Below, piece by piece: positions 29,229 to 40,590 of a DNA stretch of 64,000 nucleotides. The notes below the pieces were generated by a model. The model was given only the letters and a program-made list of their open reading frames with translations. It made no database searches and had not been told where the DNA came from. Both the position numbers and the translations under genes were made by a program. The first letter of the stretch is position 1; each line of letters starts with the position of its first letter. The stretch lies in contig NZ_JAMSHT010000001.1 in the NCBI RefSeq assembly GCF_023805295.1, forward strand, positions 1,550,001 to 1,614,000, read 5' to 3'. Source of the DNA: Sphingomicrobium sediminis (GTDB lineage: Bacteria > Pseudomonadota > Alphaproteobacteria > Sphingomonadales > Sphingomonadaceae).

Positions 29229-32200
29229 CTAGAAGTCGAAGCGCAGGATCGCCGAGAAGCGACGGTCGGTACGGAAGGCCGAACGGCGCGACCGGGTGCC
29301 GTCGAAGTCGAGGACGTAGCTCGTCTCGATGACCTCGTCGAGCAGGTTCACGCCCTGCACGCCGAGCTTCACATTGTCGGTGATCGAGTAGAAGATCGAC
29401 GCGTCGAGCTGGCCCGTGGCTTCGCCATAGATGGGCGAGAACGGGAAGATCACGTCGCGCGGGGTCTGCAGGAACTCGGAGCGCCAGTTATAGGCGGCAC
29501 GAGCCGACAGCGGACCCTTTTCGTAGAACAGCACGGCGTTGACCGTATGCTCCGACACGCCCGGCAGCGGCAGGTTCGGGAAGACATCCCCGTCGCTACC
29601 AAAGTCGTTCGCATCGACATAGGTGTAGGTCAGCTGCGTCCCGAAACCGGAAAGGATGCCGGGCAGGAACTGGAACAGGTCCTGATAGGCGACTTCAACG
29701 CCCTGTAGACCTGCATCGCCCTGGTTGATCGTGCCGAACACGAGAACGTCGAGATCCTGAACCGAACCGATGTCGAATTGACGCGGCGCCGGGCCAAAGG
29801 TCAGCAGGTTAGAGAAGTCCTTCTTGAACGCCGACACGGTCAGCGAGCCGACATCGTCCCAATAATATTCGAACGAAAGGTCGTAATTCCACGATTCGAT
29901 CGGACGAATGAGACGGTTACCCGTGGTGATCGCGAAGAGCGCACCGTCATTGAGCGTGCCTTCCTGCACCAGCGTGCGGGTATTGTCGGCGACGAAGCCA
30001 CCGGTCCGGTAGGCGGCGAGGTCGGGGCGCGAAATACCCTTCGAGACCGCACCACGGATCAGCATGCCGTTACCGAAGTCGAGCTTCGCGTTGAAGCTCG
30101 GCAGCCAGTTGTCATAGACCACGTCGGTGCTGTCATCGACGATCTCGCCAGTCAGCGAGTTCACGAATTCCTGCAGACGCGCCGAAGACAATTCGCAATA
30201 GCCCGGACCGGTCTGACCGGTGGCGATGTTGGCGCAACGGTTAAGCGCGTCGGAAACCTCCGCGACCCCGTCACCATCACCACCGCGACCGCCTTCGATC
30301 TCGGCATCGATATATTCGGGGCCGATCAGCTGGAGTTCGCCGCGCGACTGCACAGTCGTTTCGACCCAGCGCACGCCGGCATTGGCTTCAAGCACGATGC
30401 CACTGTCGAACTCATGCTCGAAGTCGAGGCGACCATAGGCAGCCAGCGTGCTTTCGCCGACCTTCGAGATTTCACCATCGAGGAAGGTGCCATCGACAAG
30501 GCCTGCACGGCTGTAGATGAGCGGACGGCCTTCCGGCGAACGGGTGAAGTCCTTGATTGCCTGGAGGTCGGCCTCGATGTCGCCATTGACGTAGGGCGTC
30601 ACGAGGTCGGCACCGCCATAATAATAGGCTGCGCCAACCGGAGCCGGCACTTCACCGTTCTGGAAGTTCTCACCGAACGGATCGTAGAGATTCGCCTGGT
30701 CGGGGAAATCGACGACATAGGCGCCGCCACCTGCGCCGAAGAAGCGACCCGGCTCGAGGCTGCCCCAGCTCCAGTCGCCCTGGCGGGTGGTCCAGGTGGA
30801 ACCCAGGTTCGACCAGTTGGAGAAGTTGGCGCTACGCGTCGTGCGATCGCGCTCGGCCCAACGGGCGCCGAAGCGGGCCTGCTTGAGCGGACCCAGGTCG
30901 ACATCGTATTCGAAATCGGCGCGGGTCGAGTAGAGTTCGCCTTCGTTGCGCACCTGGTTGTCGAGATGGAACCAGTAGAACACGCCTTCGGGGTCCGAAA
31001 CGTTCTGGTTCGCACCCGAGCTACCCGGCTGCAGGAACTGCACGATCGGCGTATCGCCACGATTGTCGTAGAAGATATCCGCGAATGTGCGGTTGGCGAG
31101 GATGATGCCCTCTTCGGTACGATCCGAATTGATGTACTGCCACTCGAAGTTACCGCGCAGACGGTCGGTCAGCGAGAAATCGAGGTCGACCGAGAAATCC
31201 TCGGTCATTGCGTCGTCCTGACGCTGGAAGCGAAGCAGTTCCGTCGGGATACCCGGCGTGAGCACGCCCGGATTGTTCACATCGTCGGCGGTGAGCTGCG
31301 TCAGCGTCGCGGACACGACTTCGTTGCCGATGATGACCGGATTGGTGCCGTCCACGATGGTCGGGAAGTTGATGGCCTCGTTGACCTGGGCAAGGACAGC
31401 GAATTCGCTGAGGTTCGCCTCGGTCTCGGCGCGAAGATATTCGACAGTCGCAACGAGATTGCCGTTGGGGCTCTCCCACTGGCCGACCGCCGAATAGGCG
31501 CGGCGATCGCGTTCGAACTGCGTGGTGCGAACACCAGCGCCCTTGGGCGTGATCAGCGTCCCCGCGGGCGGGAAGCTGGCGTCATCGAAGCTGGCATTGT
31601 CGGGGTCATAACCCGCCGACGTCACCGGTGCGACGCGGAAGCAGGGACCGTCAAGCGTATCGTCGCGATAGCAAGGGTCGGTAATCTGCGAAGCGTCGGC
31701 GCGCGACTTCAGTTCCGACTGGGCATAACCGACCTGCAGGCCGAAGGTGCCCATGGAATCGCTGTCCCAGGTGTTCGAGGCGAGCACCGAGAAACCGGGC
31801 GACCATTCTTCGGCCAGCGAGCCGTAATTCGCCTCGATCGTGCCGGCGACCTTGAGGCCGGCATTATCGAGGGGCTTGCGGGTGACGAGATTGACGAGAC
31901 CCGAAATGCCGCCTTCGACCATGTCGGCGGTCTGGTTTTTGTAGACTTCGACGCGGCCGAGAAGCTCGGGCGAGACGTCGTTGAAGCTCAGCGCGCGGCC
32001 ACCATTGGCCGAGAAGATGTCGCGGCCGTTCAGTTCCGACCGGACATAGGGGAGGCCGCGGATGATGACGCCCGAACCTTCGACCGAGAAGCGGTCGGGG
32101 TCGTCGCGCTGTTCGAAGCGGCTGATGTTGACGCCGGGGACGCGCTGCAGCGATTCGGCGACCGAGCGGTCGGGAAGCGCGCCGATATCTTCGGCCGAGA

Positions 32201-32453
32201 TGACGTCGACGAAGGTGTCGGCGTCGCGCTTGATGTCCTGCGCGGTGTTGAGGCTCTGGACGAAGCCGGTGATGAGGATCGTATCGTCTTCCTCGGTCAC
32301 CGGGGCATCGGTGCCCTCTTCTTCATCTTCCGGCGGAGTCGTGTCCTGCGCGAAAGCGGGGGTCGCAAGACCCATGCAGATGGCGAGGGTCGATGCCGTA
32401 CCGAGCATCTTCCACGACAGATTCGTTTCAAACTCTTTTGATTCGCGAGCCAA
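29229..32453 (-). CDS. TonB-dependent outer-membrane receptor (carbohydrate-locus type)
   Basis: Receptor of 1074 aa from the TTG used here. A signal peptide (SWKMLGTASTLAICMGLATPAFAQ) is followed by an acidic linker and a TonB-box-like ITGF. The plug domain (about 65-190) contains LPDRSVAESLQRVPGVNI and VIIRGL, and the large beta-barrel ends in phenylalanine. This is the long sphingomonad/Caulobacter type often tied to glycan uptake. I prefer TTG 32453 because GGGGAGGA lies 4-5 nt before it; ATG 32489 has no good ribosome site. Divergent from the halogenase gene, with two LacI-type operators in between. The ligand is presumably an oligosaccharide. Confidence 0.9.
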   Translation of the reverse strand: MARESKEFETNLSWKMLGTASTLAICMGLATPAFAQDTTPPEDEEEGTDAPVTEEDDTILITGFVQSLNTAQDIKRDADTFVDVISAEDIGALPDRSVAESLQRVPGVNISRFEQRDDPDRFSVEGSGVIIRGLPYVRSELNGRDIFSANGGRALSFNDVSPELLGRVEVYKNQTADMVEGGISGLVNLVTRKPLDNAGLKVAGTIEANYGSLAEEWSPGFSVLASNTWDSDSMGTFGLQVGYAQSELKSRADASQITDPCYRDDTLDGPCFRVAPVTSAGYDPDNASFDDASFPPAGTLITPKGAGVRTTQFERDRRAYSAVGQWESPNGNLVATVEYLRAETEANLSEFAVLAQVNEAINFPTIVDGTNPVIIGNEVVSATLTQLTADDVNNPGVLTPGIPTELLRFQRQDDAMTEDFSVDLDFSLTDRLRGNFEWQYINSDRTEEGIILANRTFADIFYDNRGDTPIVQFLQPGSSGANQNVSDPEGVFYWFHLDNQVRNEGELYSTRADFEYDVDLGPLKQARFGARWAERDRTTRSANFSNWSNLGSTWTTRQGDWSWGSLEPGRFFGAGGGAYVVDFPDQANLYDPFGENFQNGEVPAPVGAAYYYGGADLVTPYVNGDIEADLQAIKDFTRSPEGRPLIYSRAGLVDGTFLDGEISKVGESTLAAYGRLDFEHEFDSGIVLEANAGVRWVETTVQSRGELQLIGPEYIDAEIEGGRGGDGDGVAEVSDALNRCANIATGQTGPGYCELSSARLQEFVNSLTGEIVDDSTDVVYDNWLPSFNAKLDFGNGMLIRGAVSKGISRPDLAAYRTGGFVADNTRTLVQEGTLNDGALFAITTGNRLIRPIESWNYDLSFEYYWDDVGSLTVSAFKKDFSNLLTFGPAPRQFDIGSVQDLDVLVFGTINQGDAGLQGVEVAYQDLFQFLPGILSGFGTQLTYTYVDANDFGSDGDVFPNLPLPGVSEHTVNAVLFYEKGPLSARAAYNWRSEFLQTPRDVIFPFSPIYGEATGQLDASIFYSITDNVKLGVQGVNLLDEVIETSYVLDFDGTRSRRSAFRTDRRFSAILRFDF

Positions 32454-32531
32454 AGGTTCCTCCCCTGATGACTTGGCTATGTTGAGCATTGGAGCCTGAC
32501 ACTCCTATACAGGATTAGTTCTACCGCCTGC

Positions 32532-32566
32532 TGTGAACGCTCACAAGAAAAAGATGAGCGTTCACA
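32532..32566. promoter_or_regulatory. Two LacI-type operator palindromes between receptor and halogenase genes
   Basis: Sites TGTGAACGCTCACA (32532-32545) and GATGAGCGTTCACA (32553-32566) have centres exactly 21 bp apart, two helical turns. They match the palindromes before the GH3/lacI and sugar permease genes. They lie in the 215-bp divergent gap, so one regulator could control both directions. Confidence 0.75.
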
Positions 32567-32668
32567 ATTCGCCGGAAACTCGCTAAAAAGCGGGCCTAAG
32601 GGGAGCGTGAGGCCGGACCGACTGTTGCGGTTGAGTGACAGGTAAATTTGGCGAGGATCGAAACGACA

Positions 32669-34168
32669 ATGGGTATCAAGAGAATCGTGATCGTCGGCGG
32701 GGGCACTGCCGGCTGGATGACCGCGGCATCGCTGGCGCAGATGATGAAACTGCATCCGGGGCTCAAGATCACCCTCGTAGAATCCGAAGCGATCGGTACC
32801 GTTGGCGTCGGCGAAGCCACGATCCCGCCCTTCCTCGATTTCAACGAGCGACTCGGCATCGATGAAGCGGACCTGCTCTCCTCGGTCCAGGGCACCTTCA
32901 AGCTCGGCATCCATTTCGTGAACTGGGAGCGGCAGGGCGACAGCTATTTTCACCCGTTCGGCGGCTATGGCTATCCGATCGACGGTGTCGGCTTCCATCA
33001 TGTCTGGATCAAGGCGCGCCGCGATGGCGATCCGCGACCTCTCCACCGCTTCAATGCGGAAACAATGGCGGCGATGCATCGCAAGTTTGCGAAGACCCCG
33101 CCCAACCAGCGCGGTGACCTGCCGCCCATCAACTATGCCTACCATCTCGATGCGACGGCCTATGCCAAATATCTGCGTGCCTATGCCGAAAAGCTCGGCG
33201 TCGTGCGCAAGGAAGGCCGGGTCGTCGACCATGCGCTGCATGGCGAGAGCGGCTTCGTGCGCTCGATCACCATGGATGACGGGACCGAGATCGAGGGCGA
33301 CCTGTTCGTCGATTGTTCGGGCTTCCGCGGGCTACTGATCGAACAGGCGCTGGAAACGGGCTACGAGGATTGGACCCACTGGCTGCCCTGCGACCGCGCC
33401 GTGGCGATCCCCTCGGCGGGCGACAATACGGTCCTGCCCTATACCCGCGCGACCGCACATAGTGCCGGCTGGCAATGGCGCGTCCCGCTGCAGCGGCGAA
33501 ACGGCAACGGCCATGTCTATTGCTCCAGCTTCATGGAGCAAGACGAGGCGACGCGCATCCTGCTAGAAAATATCGACGGCGAAGCGCAGGCCGACCCCAA
33601 TCACCTTCGCTTCGTTACCGGGCGCCGCAAGAAATTCTGGAACAAGAATGTCGTGGCGATCGGCTTGGCCGCAGGCTTCATGGAGCCGCTCGAATCCACC
33701 TCGATCCACCTCATCAATACCGGCATCAACAAGCTCATGACGATCATGTCGATGGACGGCATTACCGAAACGCAGCAGGATACGTTCAACCGGCTCACGG
33801 GCACGGAATATAACCGCATCCGCGACTTCCTGATCCTGCACTATAACGCGACCAAGCGCGACGACAGCGAGTTCTGGAATTACGTCCGCACGATGGATGT
33901 GCCCGACACGCTCACCGAGAAGATCGAGATGTTCAAGGCTACCGGACACATCTTCCGCGAGGAAGACGAGCTATTCGTCGAAACGAGCTGGGTCGCCGTG
34001 ATGATGGGCCAGGGGATCATGCCCGGTGGGCCACATGTCATGACGCCGTCGATGAATCAGGATGGCGTCGCGCGCGAGGTTGGCGAGATCGAGAAATCGA
34101 TCGCCTATCTGGTCAACGAGATGCCGACGCACGACCAGTTCCTCGCAAGCTACTGCCCCGCCCGCTAG
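32669..34168 (+). CDS. Flavin-dependent tryptophan-halogenase family protein
   Basis: Protein of 499 aa in the Trp_halogenase family. The FAD motif GGGTAGW is at 10-16. The lysine equivalent to catalytic K79 of PrnA is K78 (TFKLGIHF). The halogenase-specific WxWxIP motif appears as WQWRVP at 268-273, and the flavin/halide loop with catalytic Glu is in EPLESTS (E342). All key residues are kept, so halogenation is chemically possible, but the gene sits in a sugar-uptake locus and not in a natural-product cluster. It needs a separate flavin reductase, and none is adjacent. ATG 32669 follows GAGG; the upstream TTG adds no domain. It converges on the GH3 gene. Confidence 0.88.
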   Translation: MGIKRIVIVGGGTAGWMTAASLAQMMKLHPGLKITLVESEAIGTVGVGEATIPPFLDFNERLGIDEADLLSSVQGTFKLGIHFVNWERQGDSYFHPFGGYGYPIDGVGFHHVWIKARRDGDPRPLHRFNAETMAAMHRKFAKTPPNQRGDLPPINYAYHLDATAYAKYLRAYAEKLGVVRKEGRVVDHALHGESGFVRSITMDDGTEIEGDLFVDCSGFRGLLIEQALETGYEDWTHWLPCDRAVAIPSAGDNTVLPYTRATAHSAGWQWRVPLQRRNGNGHVYCSSFMEQDEATRILLENIDGEAQADPNHLRFVTGRRKKFWNKNVVAIGLAAGFMEPLESTSIHLINTGINKLMTIMSMDGITETQQDTFNRLTGTEYNRIRDFLILHYNATKRDDSEFWNYVRTMDVPDTLTEKIEMFKATGHIFREEDELFVETSWVAVMMGQGIMPGGPHVMTPSMNQDGVAREVGEIEKSIAYLVNEMPTHDQFLASYCPAR

Positions 34169-34180
34169 GCGGACGGGGCA
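34154..34180. terminator. Hairpin overlapping the halogenase stop codon
   Basis: TGCCCCGCCCGC (34154-34165) pairs with GCGGACGGGGCA (34169-34180), one mismatch, with the TAG stop as the 3-nt loop. It lies between two convergent genes (halogenase and GH3), so it probably acts as a bidirectional terminator. No T-run is present. Confidence 0.55.
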
Positions 34181-34196
34181 GCGCTCTAAAGAAGGA

Positions 34197-36581
34197 TCAG
34201 AACGAGCAGGCCGTATCTTCGGGCATGTTCTGCCGCGAGATGGCCGAGATTTGCATCGTGAAGGGTGCCTCGGAGCGGATGGTCAGTGCATCGCCCAGCT
34301 CGCCCGCACAGGCTTCGGTGATGACCATTTCGCGCCAGCCCTTGCCCGCCGCGACGGCGAGATCGGCCGTGATGTCGATGGCCTGTTCACCGACCATCAG
34401 CATCACGGTGTCGGCAGGCGCAGCGCCCACCTGATAGGCTATACGATAATCGCCATCGCCATCGGTGGCACTGGCAAGCCGGATCGCGGCGCCGGGACCG
34501 AAGTCGATCTGGCGCGCATCTTCCTGGCGATTACGATCGACCCCGCGCGCGACGATGCCGCTGGCTTCGCCGCGCAGGTTGGGAAGCTCGATGCCTTCGC
34601 CGACCGACGCGGTCACGTCCGCATCGAGGCGGCCGTTCACGAACCAGTCGGTCGCCGCCCCTTCGCCAAGATAGAAGCATTGCTCATCCAGCTCAGGCGT
34701 CGGCGTATGGTCGTCGAGGCTGCGCCCGTAGCCCAGCGGGAAGAGCGCGCCTTCGGGACCGTTCAAAGGATTGCCGTTGCACGAGGCCGGCCAGCTGAAT
34801 GACAGCCGCCCGGTCGCGGGCTTCGAACCATAGACGATGTCGGCAATGCCAGCCCCTTCGCTACCCGGCAGCCAGGAGGCGATGAATGCGTCCGACGCAT
34901 TCATTTCGCGGTTCATCCACATCGGTCGGCCCGACAGAAACAAGGCGACGGTCGGGATGCCCTCGGTGTCGAACTTCTTGAGGAGGTCGAGACCTTCCTC
35001 GTCCGCAAAGACCATCGTCTTCAGGTCGCCGGCAAATTCGGCATAGGGCTGCTCGCCGAAGACCACGACGGCGACGTCGGGCTTCGTGTTGTAGCTGCCA
35101 TCTTCGGACAGCACCGCGCTGCCGCCACCGGCTTCGGCTGCGGCTTCCAGGCCCGCCCAGATCGACGTCGCGCCGGGGAAATAGTCATTGGTGAGCTCGC
35201 GCCCGCCTTGCCAGGTCAGCGTCCAGCCGCCCGAAGCCTGCGCGATCGAATCCGCCGCTGTGCCGGCGACCAGGATGTTGGCCGCCCCGTCAAGCGGAAG
35301 GATGCCGTCATTCTTTAGGATGACCTGGCTCTTGGCCACGGCATCGCGCGCGACCATGCGGTGCGGTGCGAAGCCCATCTTGTCGAAACGACCCGCATTG
35401 GCGCGATCGGACGGCTTGAGCATATTGTCGCCGAGGATGCCTGCGCGCAGCTTCACGCGCAGCACGCGGGCGACCGCATCGTCGACGCGGGCCATCGGGA
35501 TCGTCCCGTCTTCGACCTGTGCGATCAGCGTTTCGGTAAGGCCCTTCCAGTCGTCGGGCACCATGTAGATGTCGAGACCGGCGAGCAGGGATTGCGGGCA
35601 ATCGGTGACGGTGCAGCCAGCGACCTGCTGGTGACCGTTCCAGTCGCCGACAACCAGGCCGTCAAAACCCAGCTCCTCGCGCAGGACGCCGGTCAGCAAC
35701 TCTTCATTGCCGTGCATCTTCTTGCCGTTGATCGAGTTGAAGCTCGCCATCACGGCCTGCACGCCGGCATCGATGGTGGCGGGATATGGAACGGCGTGGA
35801 TCGCCTTCAATTCCTCGATATCGCCATTGACGTTGCCCTGGTCGACACCGCCCTCGGTGCCGCCATCGCCGAAGAAATGCTTGGCCGTCGCAATCACGCG
35901 GCCATAGCCGAGATAATCGTCATCGCCGGGCCTGCCCTGTAGGCCCTCGACCAGCGCCGCGCCCATCTTGGCGACGAGTTCGGGATCCTCGGAATAGCTT
36001 TCGTAGGTCCGGCCCCAGCGATCGTCGCGGGCGACCGCGACGGTGGGCGAGAAGTTCCAGTCGATCCCGGTAATCTCGATCTCGGTCGCCGTCGCCGCAC
36101 CGATCAGGCGGACGAGGTCGACATCCCCCGTGGCGCCAAGGCCGATATTGTGCGGGAAGATGGTGGCGCCGATGACGTTGGTATGGCCGTGCACCGCATC
36201 GGTGCCCCACATGGTCGGGATGACCGGCTGGTCGCCCGGCAGCGGCCGGGTCGAGGCTTCGTACATCATGTCGGCATATTCGAGCCACTTTTCGGCAGGC
36301 GCGAACTCATCGCCGAACGGGCCGCCATTGCCGCCATTCAAATAGGAGCCGAAGCGATACTTCTCCATGTCCTCGGGCGTGAAGCTGTTGATCTGCGGCT
36401 GGATCAGCTGGCCGATCTTCTGCTCGAGCGTCATGCGCGAAATGAGATCGGCGACGATCGCATCCTCGCTCATCTCGGCGCTGGGCGCCTCGACGGTTGC
36501 GGGCGCATCGGCGGGCATGGTCGCGCAGCCGGCCAGTGCAACGGCCATGGCAAGCGCGGAAATCGATTGGGCGATTCGCAT
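34197..36581 (-). CDS. GH3 family exo-beta-glucosidase-like lipoprotein
   Basis: Glycoside hydrolase of 794 aa. The lipobox LAGC (Cys19) marks it as a lipoprotein. The (beta/alpha)8 domain (about 40-370) carries KHFFGDGGTEGGVDQG (from K234) and the nucleophile D313 in LVVGDWNG. The alpha/beta sandwich (about 400-620) is followed by a ~150-residue beta-rich C-terminal domain, as in the marine ExoP-type exo-1,4/1,3-beta-glucosidases. It likely trims beta-glucosides from oligosaccharides imported by the TonB receptor. ATG 36581 has GAGGAG 11 nt upstream. Two operators lie ~80-120 bp before it. Confidence 0.92.
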   Translation of the reverse strand: MRIAQSISALAMAVALAGCATMPADAPATVEAPSAEMSEDAIVADLISRMTLEQKIGQLIQPQINSFTPEDMEKYRFGSYLNGGNGGPFGDEFAPAEKWLEYADMMYEASTRPLPGDQPVIPTMWGTDAVHGHTNVIGATIFPHNIGLGATGDVDLVRLIGAATATEIEITGIDWNFSPTVAVARDDRWGRTYESYSEDPELVAKMGAALVEGLQGRPGDDDYLGYGRVIATAKHFFGDGGTEGGVDQGNVNGDIEELKAIHAVPYPATIDAGVQAVMASFNSINGKKMHGNEELLTGVLREELGFDGLVVGDWNGHQQVAGCTVTDCPQSLLAGLDIYMVPDDWKGLTETLIAQVEDGTIPMARVDDAVARVLRVKLRAGILGDNMLKPSDRANAGRFDKMGFAPHRMVARDAVAKSQVILKNDGILPLDGAANILVAGTAADSIAQASGGWTLTWQGGRELTNDYFPGATSIWAGLEAAAEAGGGSAVLSEDGSYNTKPDVAVVVFGEQPYAEFAGDLKTMVFADEEGLDLLKKFDTEGIPTVALFLSGRPMWMNREMNASDAFIASWLPGSEGAGIADIVYGSKPATGRLSFSWPASCNGNPLNGPEGALFPLGYGRSLDDHTPTPELDEQCFYLGEGAATDWFVNGRLDADVTASVGEGIELPNLRGEASGIVARGVDRNRQEDARQIDFGPGAAIRLASATDGDGDYRIAYQVGAAPADTVMLMVGEQAIDITADLAVAAGKGWREMVITEACAGELGDALTIRSEAPFTMQISAISRQNMPEDTACSF

Positions 36582-36662
36582 CTTGGGTGAAACTCCTCTC
36601 CTGTACCCCAAGGACGGCGCATCACCGCCCCCGGTTCCCCTCGGGCGCAAGAGTAGCGAATT

Positions 36663-36699
36663 TGTGATCGTTCACAAGGGTGTAGCGTGAACGTTCACA
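36663..36699. promoter_or_regulatory. Two LacI-type operators between GH3 and lacI genes
   Basis: TGTGATCGTTCACA (36663-36676) and CGTGAACGTTCACA (36686-36699) have centres 23 bp apart. They lie in the divergent gap between the GH3 gene and the lacI gene, allowing control of the hydrolase and autoregulation. A weak promoter-like TTGCTG-N16-TATCAA (36710-36737) for lacI follows on the plus strand. Confidence 0.78.
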
Positions 36700-36765
36700 T
36701 TTTACCGCTTTGCTGACATAATAGTCACTGTTATCAATGGCCAATTGGGGGAATTACCTAGGCCG

Positions 36766-37806
36766 ATGAAAAAACAGGCAATCACGATCGAGGACGTCGC
36801 GCGGGCCGCGTCGGTCTCACGCCAGACGGTCAGTCGCGTCATCAACCGCATGCCGAGCGTTAGCGCCAAGGCGCGCGAGCGTGTCGAGTCGGCGATTGCC
36901 CAGCTCGGCTATTCGCCGAACCTTGCCGCCCGCCGCATGGGCGGGGCGCGCTCCTTCCTCATCATGGCGATCAACGATCGTGCCCGCACCATCGAAAATT
37001 GGGCCGCGGGGCGCGGCAACGACTGGGTCGACCAGATGCTCTATGGCGGCATGATGGCTTGCGAGGCGCGCGGCTATCACATGCTCTTCGAACTGGTCGA
37101 CACCGACCAGGAGGAGGCCGTCCGCCAGGTCCGCCGCGTGCTCTCCAGTCTGCAACCCGACGGCATCATCCTGACCCAGCCGCATAGCCAGAATGCCGCG
37201 CTCGTCGAGATGCTAAAGGAACAGGGCAAACCCTACGCCCGCATCGACCTGCCCTCCGACAATATCGATGGCGTCTCGATCCACATGAACGAGGAATCCG
37301 CCGCAGAATCCGCGACCCGTTACCTCATCGGCCTCGGCCATGAGCGGATCGGCTTTCTTGCCGGAAGCGCCGAATATGCGGGCAGCCATTTCCGCAAGGA
37401 TGGGTATCTCGAAGCGATGGACAGCGCCGGGCTCGAACCCCTGCTCGACAGCGCCGACTTCAGCTTCGACCGCGCCGCCGACATGGCGCGGCTATGGCTC
37501 GGCCGCCAGGCCCGGCCCACGGCGATCATTGCCGAGAATGACGAAATGGCCTTCGCCGTCCTGCACGTCGCCGACGAACTCGGGATCGAAGTGCCCAAGC
37601 ATCTTTCGGTCATCAGCTTCGAGGATACGCCGGGCGTGCGCTTCTCGGTCCCGCCGCTCACCGCCATCCGCCAGCCTACTGCTGCAATGATCGCGCGGGC
37701 CTGCGAAATCCTGATGGATGCGGCCGAGGGTGAGGAATCGAATGACGAGACAGTCCTGCCCTTCCAGCTGATCAAGCGCGAGACGACTGGCCCCGCGCCG
37801 CGATGA
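36766..37806 (+). CDS. LacI-family transcriptional regulator
   Basis: Repressor of 346 aa. The N-terminal helix-turn-helix (ITIEDVARAASVSRQTVSRVIN, residues ~5-27) and hinge helix (SPNLAARRM) are classic LacI. The periplasmic-binding-like sugar domain covers about 62-340. ATG 36766 is used; the frame upstream opens only with a TTG. It overlaps the MFS gene by 4 nt (ATGA). The five palindromes around it are the expected targets; LacI proteins usually bind such 14-bp CG-centred palindromes. The inducer is presumably a glucoside or glucose-containing oligosaccharide (inferred from GH3). Confidence 0.93.
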   Translation: MKKQAITIEDVARAASVSRQTVSRVINRMPSVSAKARERVESAIAQLGYSPNLAARRMGGARSFLIMAINDRARTIENWAAGRGNDWVDQMLYGGMMACEARGYHMLFELVDTDQEEAVRQVRRVLSSLQPDGIILTQPHSQNAALVEMLKEQGKPYARIDLPSDNIDGVSIHMNEESAAESATRYLIGLGHERIGFLAGSAEYAGSHFRKDGYLEAMDSAGLEPLLDSADFSFDRAADMARLWLGRQARPTAIIAENDEMAFAVLHVADELGIEVPKHLSVISFEDTPGVRFSVPPLTAIRQPTAAMIARACEILMDAAEGEESNDETVLPFQLIKRETTGPAPR

Positions 37807-39017
37807 ACGCGTTCGAGCGACGCTTCGTCCTCGCCAATTTCGGCGCGTTCCTCGCTTTCCTGCCCCTGCTCGTCCTGCTGCTACCGCGGCGGGTCGAGGC
37901 CATCTCGCCGGATGCCCCGCTCATCCTCCTGTCGCAGCTACTGCTGGTCGGCGGCATCGCCGCGAGTATCGCCCATTACCTGGCCGGCGCCTGGAGCGAT
38001 CGCTGGGTCGCGCGGCATGGCGAACGCCGCGGCCTGATCGCCATCGGGCTCACCGCCTTGATGGGCAGTTATGCATTACTTGCAGTCGCCGCGACGCCGG
38101 CTTTGCTCTTTGCAGCGATCATCACCTTCCAGCTCGCCTTCAACCTCATGTTTTCGCCGATGGGCGTGCTGCTCGCCGATTATGTGCCCGATGCGCGCAA
38201 GGGGCTGATGGCAGGCGCGCTCAACATGGCGCTCCCGCTCGCCGGCTTCGGGGTCACGGCGCTAGGCTGGATCAGCAGCGAGGATGCCGATTGGCCGTTC
38301 CTCCTGACCGCCTTCACGATCCTGCTGCTCGTCATGCCGCTGCTCATCGGCTGGCGACGCCATGCGCCAGCTTTCCAGGAAGCGAGCCAGCGCAACGAGG
38401 ACGGCGGCTTGCCCGATCTCAGCCTGCTCACGGGCGACTATGCGCGCGCCTGGGTCGCCCGCCTGCTCGTCCAGCTCGGCGGCGCGAGCCTGCTTCCCTA
38501 CCTCTTCCTTTATGTCGACAGCGTCGCGCGCGCGGCGCCGGGCTATGGCGGCAGCACGAGTAGCGCCGCGGTCGGCACCCTCACCCTCGTTGCCAATATC
38601 GTCGCCATCGGCGCGGGGCTGGCAGCGGGTCGCTGGAGCGATCGGATTGGCCGGCGCAAACTGCCGCTGGTGCTTGCCGCCCTGCTCGCCGCCGGTGCGC
38701 TGGCGCTGCTCGCTGCAGCGCCCGACTGGCGCCTCATCATCCTCGGCTATGCGCTGTTCACGGCGGGGCTAACGGCTTTCCTCTCGGTCGACAGCGCGAT
38801 GGTCGCGCAGATCGTGTCGGGTCGCGAAAAACGAGGCGCCTTGCTCGGCCTCATGAACCTCACCAACACGCTGCCCGCGATCATCGCGCCGGCAATGGCG
38901 TTAGTCATTGCCGAGGCCGCTTTGGGCGGCGGCGTCCTGCGCACCCTGCTCGGCATCGCAGCGCTTGCAGCGGTCGCCTCGACCTTCCTCATCGCGCGCA
39001 TCGAAAGCGTACGCTGA
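37803..39017 (+). CDS. MFS transporter coupled to the LacI regulator
   Basis: Major facilitator of 404 aa with about twelve membrane segments and the loop motifs GAWSDRWVARHGERR (between TM2 and TM3) and GRWSDRIGRRK (between TM8 and TM9). It starts inside the lacI stop. It resembles uncharacterised sugar MFS carriers placed in sphingomonad and Caulobacter glycan loci, and it is distinct in sequence from the FucP-type permease 140 bp downstream. It probably imports the sugar released by GH3 or exports a product; direction is not readable. Confidence 0.88.
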   Translation: MNAFERRFVLANFGAFLAFLPLLVLLLPRRVEAISPDAPLILLSQLLLVGGIAASIAHYLAGAWSDRWVARHGERRGLIAIGLTALMGSYALLAVAATPALLFAAIITFQLAFNLMFSPMGVLLADYVPDARKGLMAGALNMALPLAGFGVTALGWISSEDADWPFLLTAFTILLLVMPLLIGWRRHAPAFQEASQRNEDGGLPDLSLLTGDYARAWVARLLVQLGGASLLPYLFLYVDSVARAAPGYGGSTSSAAVGTLTLVANIVAIGAGLAAGRWSDRIGRRKLPLVLAALLAAGALALLAAAPDWRLIILGYALFTAGLTAFLSVDSAMVAQIVSGREKRGALLGLMNLTNTLPAIIAPAMALVIAEAALGGGVLRTLLGIAALAAVASTFLIARIESVR

Positions 39018-39086
39018 GCGGCTTCGCGAATTTTTCACTGGCCTGTGGTGCGCCAACTTCGCATAAAACGGGATGGACGTTCGCGA

Positions 39087-39100
39087 TGTGATCGTTCACA
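39087..39100. promoter_or_regulatory. LacI-type operator before the FucP-type permease gene
   Basis: TGTGATCGTTCACA is identical to the site at 36663-36676 and lies 60 bp before the permease start. A degenerate half-match (centre ACGTTC) precedes it by 15 bp. It supports separate control of the permease by the LacI protein. Confidence 0.75.
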
Positions 39101-39159
39101 TTCGCCGATCTGGGTGGATGCCGGTCAGGGGCAAGCCACCATAATGGGGAGGTTTTTCT

Positions 39160-40590
39160 ATGGTATCCGTTTCGCCCGACGCGGCAACGAGCACCGATCC
39201 GCGGCCGATCGTCGAGGACGATGGCGGCGTGAAGGCGCCGGGGCTCAACTATTTCGTCTTCGCGCTCTTCTTCATCTTCGGCGGGATCACGTCCTTGAAC
39301 GACGTCATCATCCCCAAGCTGAAAGAGCTGTTCACGCTGAGCTACACCGAAGCCATGCTGGTGCAGTTCTGCTTCTTCACCGCCTACCTGCTAATCGGCA
39401 TTCCGGGCGCCAAGCTCGTCAAGCGCATCGGCTATATGCGCGGAGCGACGGTGGGCCTCATCACCATGATGGCAGGCTGCCTTATGTTCATTCCGGCAAG
39501 CCAGACCGCGACCTATTGGGTCTTCCTGCTCGCGCTCTTCATCCTCGCCTCGGGCGTGGTCGTCGTGCAGGTCGTCGCCAACCCGCTGATCAGCCTTTTG
39601 GGGCCGCAAAAGACGGCGCATAGCCGCCTCACCTTCGCGCAGGCCTTCAACTCGCTGGGCACGACCGTCTTCCCGATCGTCGGTACGATCATCATCCTCG
39701 GCAGCCTTGCCACGGTGACCGCCGACCAACTGTCGGGCATCGAGCTCCAGGAATATCGCCAGGCCGAAAGCGCCGCCATCTGGAAGGGCTATCTCGGCCT
39801 TACCGTCCTGATCGGCATCGTCGCCGCCGCCGTCTGGGCGTTCCGCAATCGCTTGCCGCACGATGCCAAGAGCATGGGCGAGAACAAGCTCGTCTCGTGG
39901 AACCGCTATGTCATCGGCATCGCCATCGTCGTCATTGGCGGCGTGGTCGCGCTGAACGTCAGCCAGATCCTCGGCCTACTCATCATCATGGCAGCACCGG
40001 CGCTCTGGCTGTTCGACAACGACCTCCTGAAGCGCAAGCGCTTCGGCTACGGCGCCCTGAGCATCTTCCTCTACGTCGGTGCCGAGGTCGCGATCGGCTC
40101 GATCATCGTCAACTATCTGATGCAGGAAAGCGTGCTGAACCTGCCCGAGAGCGAAGCGGGCAAGCTCATCGCCGTCTATTGGGGCGGCGCCATGGTCGGC
40201 CGCTTCATCGGCTCGGGACTGCTGCGCATCTTCTCGCCCGGCAAGATCCTTGCCTTCAACTGCATCGGCGCAATCACGCTTATCGCCATCAGCATGATGT
40301 CGACAGGCGAAGTCGCGGCCTACTCGCTGCTGGCGGTCGGTCTCATGAACTCGATCATGTTCCCGACCATCTTCAGCCTCGCCTGCGAGAAGCTGGGTCC
40401 GCGCGCAGCCGACGGGTCGGGCATCATCAACATCGCCATCTTCGGCGGTGCGGTGGTCCCGGTCGTGTTCGGCATGGTGGCCGATGCCACCAGCCTGTCG
40501 AACGCGCTGGTCCTCCCGATCATCTGCTACGCGATCATCGCCGGCTTCGGTGTTTTCGCACGGCGACCTGCCGAGGCCTATGTCGACTAG
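39160..40590 (+). CDS. FucP/NagP-type sugar MFS permease
   Basis: Sugar permease of 476 aa of the FucP branch (FGGITSLNDVIIPKLKELF, then FTAYLLIGIPGAKLVKRIGY, VVQVVANPLISLLGP and TFAQAFNSLGTT). Twelve membrane segments are visible. The branch includes glucose/galactose, fucose and N-acetylglucosamine proton symporters. GGGGAGG 7 nt before ATG 39160 is a strong ribosome site. It has its own LacI-type operator and ends at a strong terminator, so it is the end of the carbohydrate locus. Glucose from the GH3 reaction is the most likely cargo, by inference. Confidence 0.92.
   Translation: MVSVSPDAATSTDPRPIVEDDGGVKAPGLNYFVFALFFIFGGITSLNDVIIPKLKELFTLSYTEAMLVQFCFFTAYLLIGIPGAKLVKRIGYMRGATVGLITMMAGCLMFIPASQTATYWVFLLALFILASGVVVVQVVANPLISLLGPQKTAHSRLTFAQAFNSLGTTVFPIVGTIIILGSLATVTADQLSGIELQEYRQAESAAIWKGYLGLTVLIGIVAAAVWAFRNRLPHDAKSMGENKLVSWNRYVIGIAIVVIGGVVALNVSQILGLLIIMAAPALWLFDNDLLKRKRFGYGALSIFLYVGAEVAIGSIIVNYLMQESVLNLPESEAGKLIAVYWGGAMVGRFIGSGLLRIFSPGKILAFNCIGAITLIAISMMSTGEVAAYSLLAVGLMNSIMFPTIFSLACEKLGPRAADGSGIINIAIFGGAVVPVVFGMVADATSLSNALVLPIICYAIIAGFGVFARRPAEAYVD

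Follow-up and report, generated by a model that had tools for sequence, protein, structure and literature searches.

The window analysed here is a stretch of 64 kb from Sphingomicrobium sediminis (64,000 nucleotides of contig NZ_JAMSHT010000001.1, positions 1,550,001 to 1,614,000), and its subject is a putative beta-glucan locus that holds a LacI-family regulator gene and five copies of an operator-like palindrome. The locus begins with a TonB-dependent receptor gene (29229–32489, minus strand; TIGR01782, 579 bits against a cut-off of 310), followed by genes for a flavin-dependent (tryptophan) halogenase-like protein (32669–34168, plus strand; PF04820, 620 bits; nearest solved structures 9luq, 6frl and 6y1w) and a GH3 exo-beta-glucanase-like protein (34197–36650, minus strand; PF00933, PF01915 and the Exop_C domain PF18559). 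The nearest solved structure of the latter is the exo-1,3/1,4-beta-glucanase 3usz (656 bits). The regulator gene lacI (36766–37806, plus strand) encodes the domains of the LacI/GalR family, a PF00356 helix-turn-helix (66 bits) and a Peripla_BP_3/1 sugar domain (119 bits for Peripla_BP_3), over the cut-offs; its frame is open from a TTG at 36745, and the ATG at 36766 is the probable start. Its stop is overlapped by the start of a major facilitator superfamily (MFS) transporter gene (37803–39017, plus strand; PF07690). The last gene encodes a GluP-type glucose/galactose MFS permease (39160–40590, plus strand; TIGR01272, 252 bits, cut-off 202.55). A first-pass annotation had called the permease FucP-type, but it reaches 201 bits with the fucP profile, under the cut-off of 280.4; the names given to the other five genes hold. 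As in BglR-type local systems, lacI is clustered with a beta-glucosidase gene and sugar transport genes bearing predicted sites. The halogenase-like gene lies inside this sugar locus, under the same predicted operators.

Sites were defined by at most one mismatch to TGTGAnCGnTCACA, the N-degenerate form of the palindrome. The five copies that had been picked out by eye in three intergenic gaps were all recovered. Between the receptor gene (minus) and the halogenase gene (plus) lie operator 1a (TGTGAACGCTCACA, 32532–32545, no mismatch) and, 21 bp after it, a degenerate tandem partner, 1b (GATGAGCGTTCACA, 32553–32566, two mismatches). This tandem layout is identical in G002 and G012, and the GAT- form of 1b is seen again at 21 bp in L254, L256 and L051 (G000 is the window's own genome, other G numbers are congeneric genomes and L numbers are locus records). 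Between the GH3 gene (minus) and lacI (plus), operator 2a (TGTGATCGTTCACA, 36663–36676, no mismatch) is followed at 23 bp by 2b (CGTGAACGTTCACA, 36686–36699, one mismatch), which overlaps the −35-like TTCACA (36694–36699) of a promoter-like match upstream of lacI. Operator 3 (39087–39100, no mismatch) precedes the GluP/FucP-type permease gene and is identical to 2a, as had been claimed. A perfect site about 1.3 kb past lacI also occurs in G002, G005 and G012, among the matches listed; a permease at the equivalent position was read among these relatives in G012 only. On the far side of the cluster, G002 (L254:3192) and G005 (L255:17735) carry a perfect TGTGATCGATCACA beside glutamate-dehydrogenase-like and PAS-like genes (names given by eye), and a pattern scan of the window found no site matching it.

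The palindrome is even, has a central CG and lies upstream of the regulator's own gene, as LacI-type operators commonly do. Four sites of at most one mismatch occur in the 64 kb, all in the three gaps, against a mean of 0.15 and a maximum of 1 in 60 first-order Markov resamplings. When the earlier pattern was allowed up to three mismatches, 13 strand-matches were found in the window against 5.9 expected, and 1 of 100 shuffles gave as many as 13; three of the 13 (11277, 14505 and 25142) lie outside the gaps and are at chance level. The sites of the window are real and beyond chance.

The pairing of this operator with the LacI protein is well supported by comparative evidence. Among 98 loci with a LacI relative (some genomes entered twice, for instance as L023/L051, L027/L052 and L025/L112), a palindrome of at most one mismatch is found in the 300 bp upstream of the lacI relative in 38 of the 45 rows with an identity of at least 52.8%, and in none of the 53 more distant rows (44 at 45–52% and 9 at 32–37% identity). 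Seven close-relative rows have no upstream site (L056, L057, L062, L064, L071, L073 and L076); in L062, L064, L071 and L076 a one-mismatch site is found about 6.5 kb off. LacI relatives of 52–58% identity extend to the Caulobacteraceae records L061 and L081. The sites tend to come in tandem, 47 of 56 close pairs being spaced 21–24 bp apart (pairs 14–60 bp apart, with at most one mismatch in one member and at most three in the other; the 72 sequences include a few genomes twice). Tandems of 21–22 bp have been described for LacI-family regulators and were taken as a sign of cooperative dimers (PMC4052901), so this feature is a known one.

The nearest solved relatives of the window LacI are the E. 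coli LacI structures 1jye and 1efa. In the alignment VSRQTVSR is paired with VSYQTVSR, so that the recognition segment reads RQTVSR for YQTVSR, and the 14-bp motif is one that we take to be of the lac-operator class from its likeness to the symmetric lac operator. The alignment ends at residue 329 of E. coli LacI, with five residues remaining in the window protein. The C-terminal tetramer helix of E. coli LacI is located beyond about residue 335. Since this helix has no counterpart, we expect a dimer working on tandem sites and not a looping tetramer. Of the inducer contacts of E. coli LacI, R197 and N246 are retained and D274 is replaced by Glu, which agrees with a sugar effector. Two LacI-family genes over the Pfam cut-off occur in the genome (2.33 Mb, 4 contigs), and the second, at about 9.3–10.3 kb of contig C1, has QPTVSR where the window LacI has RQTVSR. 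This second gene lies near halogenase-like and sugar-enzyme-like genes, mostly named by eye (L020:5287–19272, C1 about 9.3–23.3 kb); the gene run leads directly into zwf, the start of which overlaps the end of a PF04820 halogenase gene.

The first-pass annotation had described the regulon as self-contained and had proposed to scan the genome with a matrix built from the five sites. The scan was run with the pattern instead and gave 12 sites of at most one mismatch, only four of them in the locus, while the reversed pattern gave none. With eight of 12 sites elsewhere, the regulon is not self-contained. Phylogenetic footprinting and the co-occurrence of sites with a LacI ortholog support the proposed operator, regulator and local targets; the target set is not confined to the locus. 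One outside site (C1:414065) stands 9 bp ahead of the first ATG in a GH16 gene, the nearest solved relatives of which include laminarinases; lipobox-like N-termini were read by eye in both the GH16 and GH3 glucanases. Another precedes a second TonB receptor gene (C1:417101). Further sites are found between pckA and an OmpR-type response regulator gene (C1:814246), before the class I fba gene (C1:874385), 71 bp before zwf and within the end of a halogenase gene (C1:21765), and between lpd and a glucokinase-like gene (PF02685; C1:1305271). The glucokinase-like gene starts 24 bp beyond the last site on the other strand, and is a likelier target than lpd. Five of the eight outside sites adjoin genes of carbohydrate or central-carbon metabolism (GH16, pckA, fba, zwf and glucokinase/lpd), and those at GH16, pckA, fba and zwf recur in relatives at no more than one mismatch, so that the outcome named beforehand as damaging, many equal-scoring sites unrelated to sugar genes, did not arise. 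The predicted regulon appears real, but its sites also stand beside core energy-metabolism genes.

Such sites were then sought in the genus Sphingomicrobium, which includes S. astaxanthinifaciens (G005) and S. lutaoense (G017). Ortholog loci were taken from 30 genomes each for pckA, lpd, pdhA and fba, from 28 of the 30 for zwf (the second copy of G011 excluded) and from 7 of the 30 for GH16 (E ≤ 1e-40). They made up 155 loci and 656 kb, the own genome being represented by pdhA only. The 656 kb contain 21 matches of at most one mismatch, and all 21 fall inside the −350 to +90 promoter windows of one eight-species clade. There were no matches in the remaining 590 kb of these loci and none in the 48 kb that these promoter windows cover in non-clade species. 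With the own genome included, a site is present at fba in 7 of 8 clade genomes, at GH16 in all 7 clade genomes that have the gene, at zwf in five genomes, at pckA in four, at pdhA in two and at lpd/glk in one. GH16 orthologs in the congeners coincide with a LacI of at least 61% identity in 7 of 7 cases; six have a site of at most one mismatch and the seventh one of two mismatches. The fba core GArCGTTCAC is retained in 7 of 7 aligned clade promoters despite diverged flanks, and the pckA site lies at −110 to −113 in 4 of 4 members of one subclade. The sites, their restriction to the clade and their promoter positions are thus read directly from the genomes. The sites at zwf, at glk/lpd (G000) and at other central-carbon promoters (pckA and fba) fit a GluR-type central-carbon regulon.

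The numbers of sites in whole genomes follow the same division. The clade has 5–13 sites per genome (mean 8.75) versus 0–4 (mean 1.6) in ten congeners whose genomes hold no LacI relative at 45% identity or more, and the reversed pattern gives 0–3 per genome in 31 genomes. In 16 genomes from outside the genus sample, where exact matches alone were scanned, 0–3 were found in each, and 16 of the 19 lie in lacI loci by coordinates; the regulator therefore looks mostly local outside the clade. In a species tree of four concatenated proteins from 31 genomes, the eight species form one clade (SH-aLRT 100) composed of the pairs (G000, G012), (G002, G005), (G001, G031) and (G016, G017). The LacI tree likewise places the eight clade proteins together (98), beside that of G014 (95; a long branch). 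The gains of sites are nested on the species tree. Those at fba and GH16 are the widest, occurring throughout the clade bar G017, in which the ortholog search found no GH16; zwf sites occur in the subclade of G000, G012, G002 and G005 and also in G016, pckA sites are limited to that subclade, and pdhA sites to G002 and G005. We read this pattern as a probable stepwise expansion, with loss in G017 and with loss or parallel gain at zwf.

Two promoter arrangements can be told apart. At lacI the operator overlaps the −35-like element and at GH16 the site stands just before the start codon, which suggests repression. The pckA and fba sites end 2–4 bp before a −35-like TTGxCx/TTGCxx (by eye), a position just upstream of the hexamer at which activation is possible. 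A second palindrome, GCATACGTATGC, is present in exact form in 9 of the 11 clade pckA/fba promoters that have a LacI site, and in those nine it starts 51–52 bp downstream of the start of the LacI site. The pckA promoter of G005 has it with two mismatches at 52 bp, and it is absent from the fba promoter of G005, the last of these 11. An exact upstream copy is found at pckA in 23 of 31 genomes, among them 6 of the 10 that lack a LacI ortholog, and an exact copy at fba in 13 of 31. The fetched loci, 2.5 Mb altogether, contain 41 exact copies, every one of them at pckA or fba (overlapping loci counted twice). The palindrome stands directly downstream of a −10-like element (L015:8197, L016:8337; pckA/fba loci L120–L149 and L287–L316). 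PhaR was considered and rejected, its motif NYGCRNYGCRN (PMC12542648) not fitting, and among the matches listed in a literature text search no title pointed to a regulatory paper on this palindrome.

We consider it likely, with a probability of about 0.8, that a local beta-glucan LacI repressor has turned into a central-carbon regulator within the genus, in an expansion like that of Cra or GluR. In this model, LacI would be a sugar-responsive dimer that occupies TGTGAnCGnTCACA singly or as tandem pairs 21–24 bp apart. Without inducer, the dimers would repress the beta-glucan uptake and hydrolysis genes of the window and lacI itself. The GH16 and GH3 glucanases, the TonB receptor and the GluP-type permease would supply glucose or short beta-glucosides from beta-1,3/1,4-glucan, and a breakdown product, presumably glucose or a short beta-glucoside, would free LacI from its operators. 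In the eight-species clade LacI may also act at the GH16 laminarinase-like gene and at central-carbon genes, namely fba, with zwf, pckA and pdhA in subsets and glucokinase/lpd in the species of the window. The position of the site suits repression at GH16 and lacI, and at pckA and fba it would suit activation by uninduced LacI, as for Cra and CceR; the central genes likely follow a CceR-like logic. Binding, effector and the sign of regulation are what we infer from sequence here. More tentatively, and at somewhat less than even odds, pckA and fba of the clade may be two-input switches, in which GCATACGTATGC, close to the transcription start, serves an older central-carbon regulator, and the beta-glucan LacI joined later as an activator, at a fixed distance of 51–52 bp upstream and just before the −35. 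If so, the genus would preserve consecutive stages in the recruitment of a local repressor to central metabolism.

Several observations weigh against an expansion into central metabolism. Since pckA, fba, pdhA, GH16, lpd and zwf were picked after sites had been seen in G000, G002, G005, G012 or G016, the result of 21 of 21 partly reflects selection, and the clade genomes are related and so not independent. The counts are for these reasons not independent trials, and the blank outgroup and flanks are the stronger controls. In relatives, the lpd/glk site amounts to one two-mismatch copy in G002 only. The pdhA gene has no site in G000 (best match three mismatches), and its sites are those of G002 and G005 only. 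The zwf site stands at 71 bp in G000 versus 97 bp in G012, and that of G000 sits within the end of a halogenase gene. Although LacI is present in G017, sites are absent there from fba, zwf, pckA and pdhA, and G014, G018 and G025, with LacI relatives of 56–61%, have no central-carbon sites of at most one mismatch. Outside the clade, 13 congeners with LacI relatives of 45–61% have 1–6 sites each, and 3 of the 19 exact outgroup sites lie away from lacI.

The lack of central-carbon sites in G017, G014, G018 and G025 could mean that the regulon is purely local, limited to the window cluster and perhaps GH16, and that the pckA, fba and zwf sites arose by chance or persist as functionless relics. Similar 14-mers do occur, 0–4 per genome, in the 10 congeners without a LacI ortholog, and the exact outgroup sites are almost confined to lacI loci. 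Against this stand the fba core, kept in seven of seven aligned clade promoters with diverged flanks, the pckA site, kept in four of four members of one subclade, and the absence of any match from 48 kb of equivalent promoter windows of other species, and we regard a purely local regulon as improbable. Still less credible is that another regulator, such as one of CRP/FNR type, binds the palindromes while the lacI gene is a bystander. The half-sites TGTGA and TCACA do look CRP-like. CRP sites are TGTGA-N6-TCACA, whereas the half-sites here are separated by N4 and the palindrome has the central CG typical of the LacI family, so a CRP/FNR operator was rejected. Site numbers, moreover, follow the lacI gene across species, and sites lie upstream of lacI itself. 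A central CG was reported in the operators of 1173 of 1303 LacI-family transcription factors (PMC4052901).

A much closer question is whether LacI represses every target, pckA and fba included, by blocking the −35, and is a plain repressor with no dual switch. The downstream lacI site overlaps the −35-like hexamer, the GH16 site stands just before the start codon, and an operator 2–4 bp upstream of a −35 might also obstruct the polymerase. Nevertheless, pckA is gluconeogenic, so its induction by sugar would make little sense, and the LacI-family analogue CceR activates PckA and Fba in Paracoccus (PMC11323563). We hold plain repression to be a real possibility, a little below an even chance.

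The proposed expansion of a beta-glucan LacI into central metabolism has parallels in known systems. GluR and BglR1-3 of Caulobacter, as well as PckR, GapR and FruR, have been described together with a local-to-global expansion (Ravcheev et al. 2014, PMC4052901). GluR has zwf-pgl-edd-glk, pykA, gnl-gfo, ppdK and sucABCD as targets and glucose as the proposed effector (PMC4052901). Like GluR and BglR1-3 of Caulobacterales, the window LacI is an alphaproteobacterial member of the family with predicted beta-glucoside and central-carbon targets. Compared by description only, those regulators split the two jobs among paralogs, whereas here one regulator appears to do both, and its predicted targets add pckA, fba and pdhA to those of GluR. 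Enterobacterial FruR/Cra, which represses glycolytic and activates gluconeogenic genes, similarly still controls a sugar operon of its own locus in addition to central carbon, and its regulon expanded lineage by lineage (PMC4052901), although its sugar locus, operator and lineage are different. CceR/GapR of Rhodobacterales and PckR of Rhizobiales are LacI-family switches of central carbon, at genes such as pckA, fba and zwf (PMC11323563; PMC4052901), and CceR represses glycolytic enzymes in Paracoccus (PMC11323563). However, pckR and gapR lie mostly apart from their targets (PMC4052901), whereas the window lacI sits within its beta-glucan locus. CceR and GluR also figure as central-carbon regulators of alphaproteobacteria in a later reconstruction for microbial-mat bacteria, which predicted TonB transporters for beta-glucosides (PMC5507952). 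The sux locus of Xanthomonas campestris likewise joins a TonB receptor, an MFS transporter and a LacI-type repressor (SuxR) for one sugar, but it serves sucrose, includes amylosucrase and is described as a local regulon (PMC1790865). E. coli LacI, the nearest solved relative, shares the 14-bp operator class and a near-identical recognition segment, and differs by its C-terminal tetramer helix.

By title and abstract, no earlier description of this regulon was found in the Sphingomonadales and Sphingomicrobium literature; RegPrecise lay outside that search. While local-to-central expansion is already known from FruR/Cra and proposed for GluR, its steps can here be followed along the species tree of a single genus, where the operators gained occupy defined places in the promoters, and the order of gain and the effect on expression are therefore directly testable in close relatives. 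A natural contrast is offered by S. astaxanthinifaciens, with sites at zwf, pckA, pdhA, fba and GH16, and S. lutaoense, which has LacI and lacks all five of these sites. The regulon would link the use of algal beta-glucan (laminarin-type) to the switch between glycolysis and gluconeogenesis, and the comparison also brings to light GCATACGTATGC as a second conserved operator-like palindrome.

The two remaining sites of the genome look coding-driven or due to chance. That at C2:8303 has no visible upstream role and was rejected as a target, because it lies downstream, not upstream, of the sole likely gene there. The other, at C1:1186144, lies where a gene encoding two cold-shock domains begins; a near-match at this gene is also found in G002 and G005 (L017:8145, L241:3499 and L246:3556; three species in all), and the palindrome may represent conserved first codons rather than an operator. 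Additional one-mismatch sites in G002 and G005 (L243:3516, L245:3542 and L238:3497) lie near a CDC48-like ATPase gene and, in G002, near a trehalose-phosphatase-like gene, both genes being named by eye.

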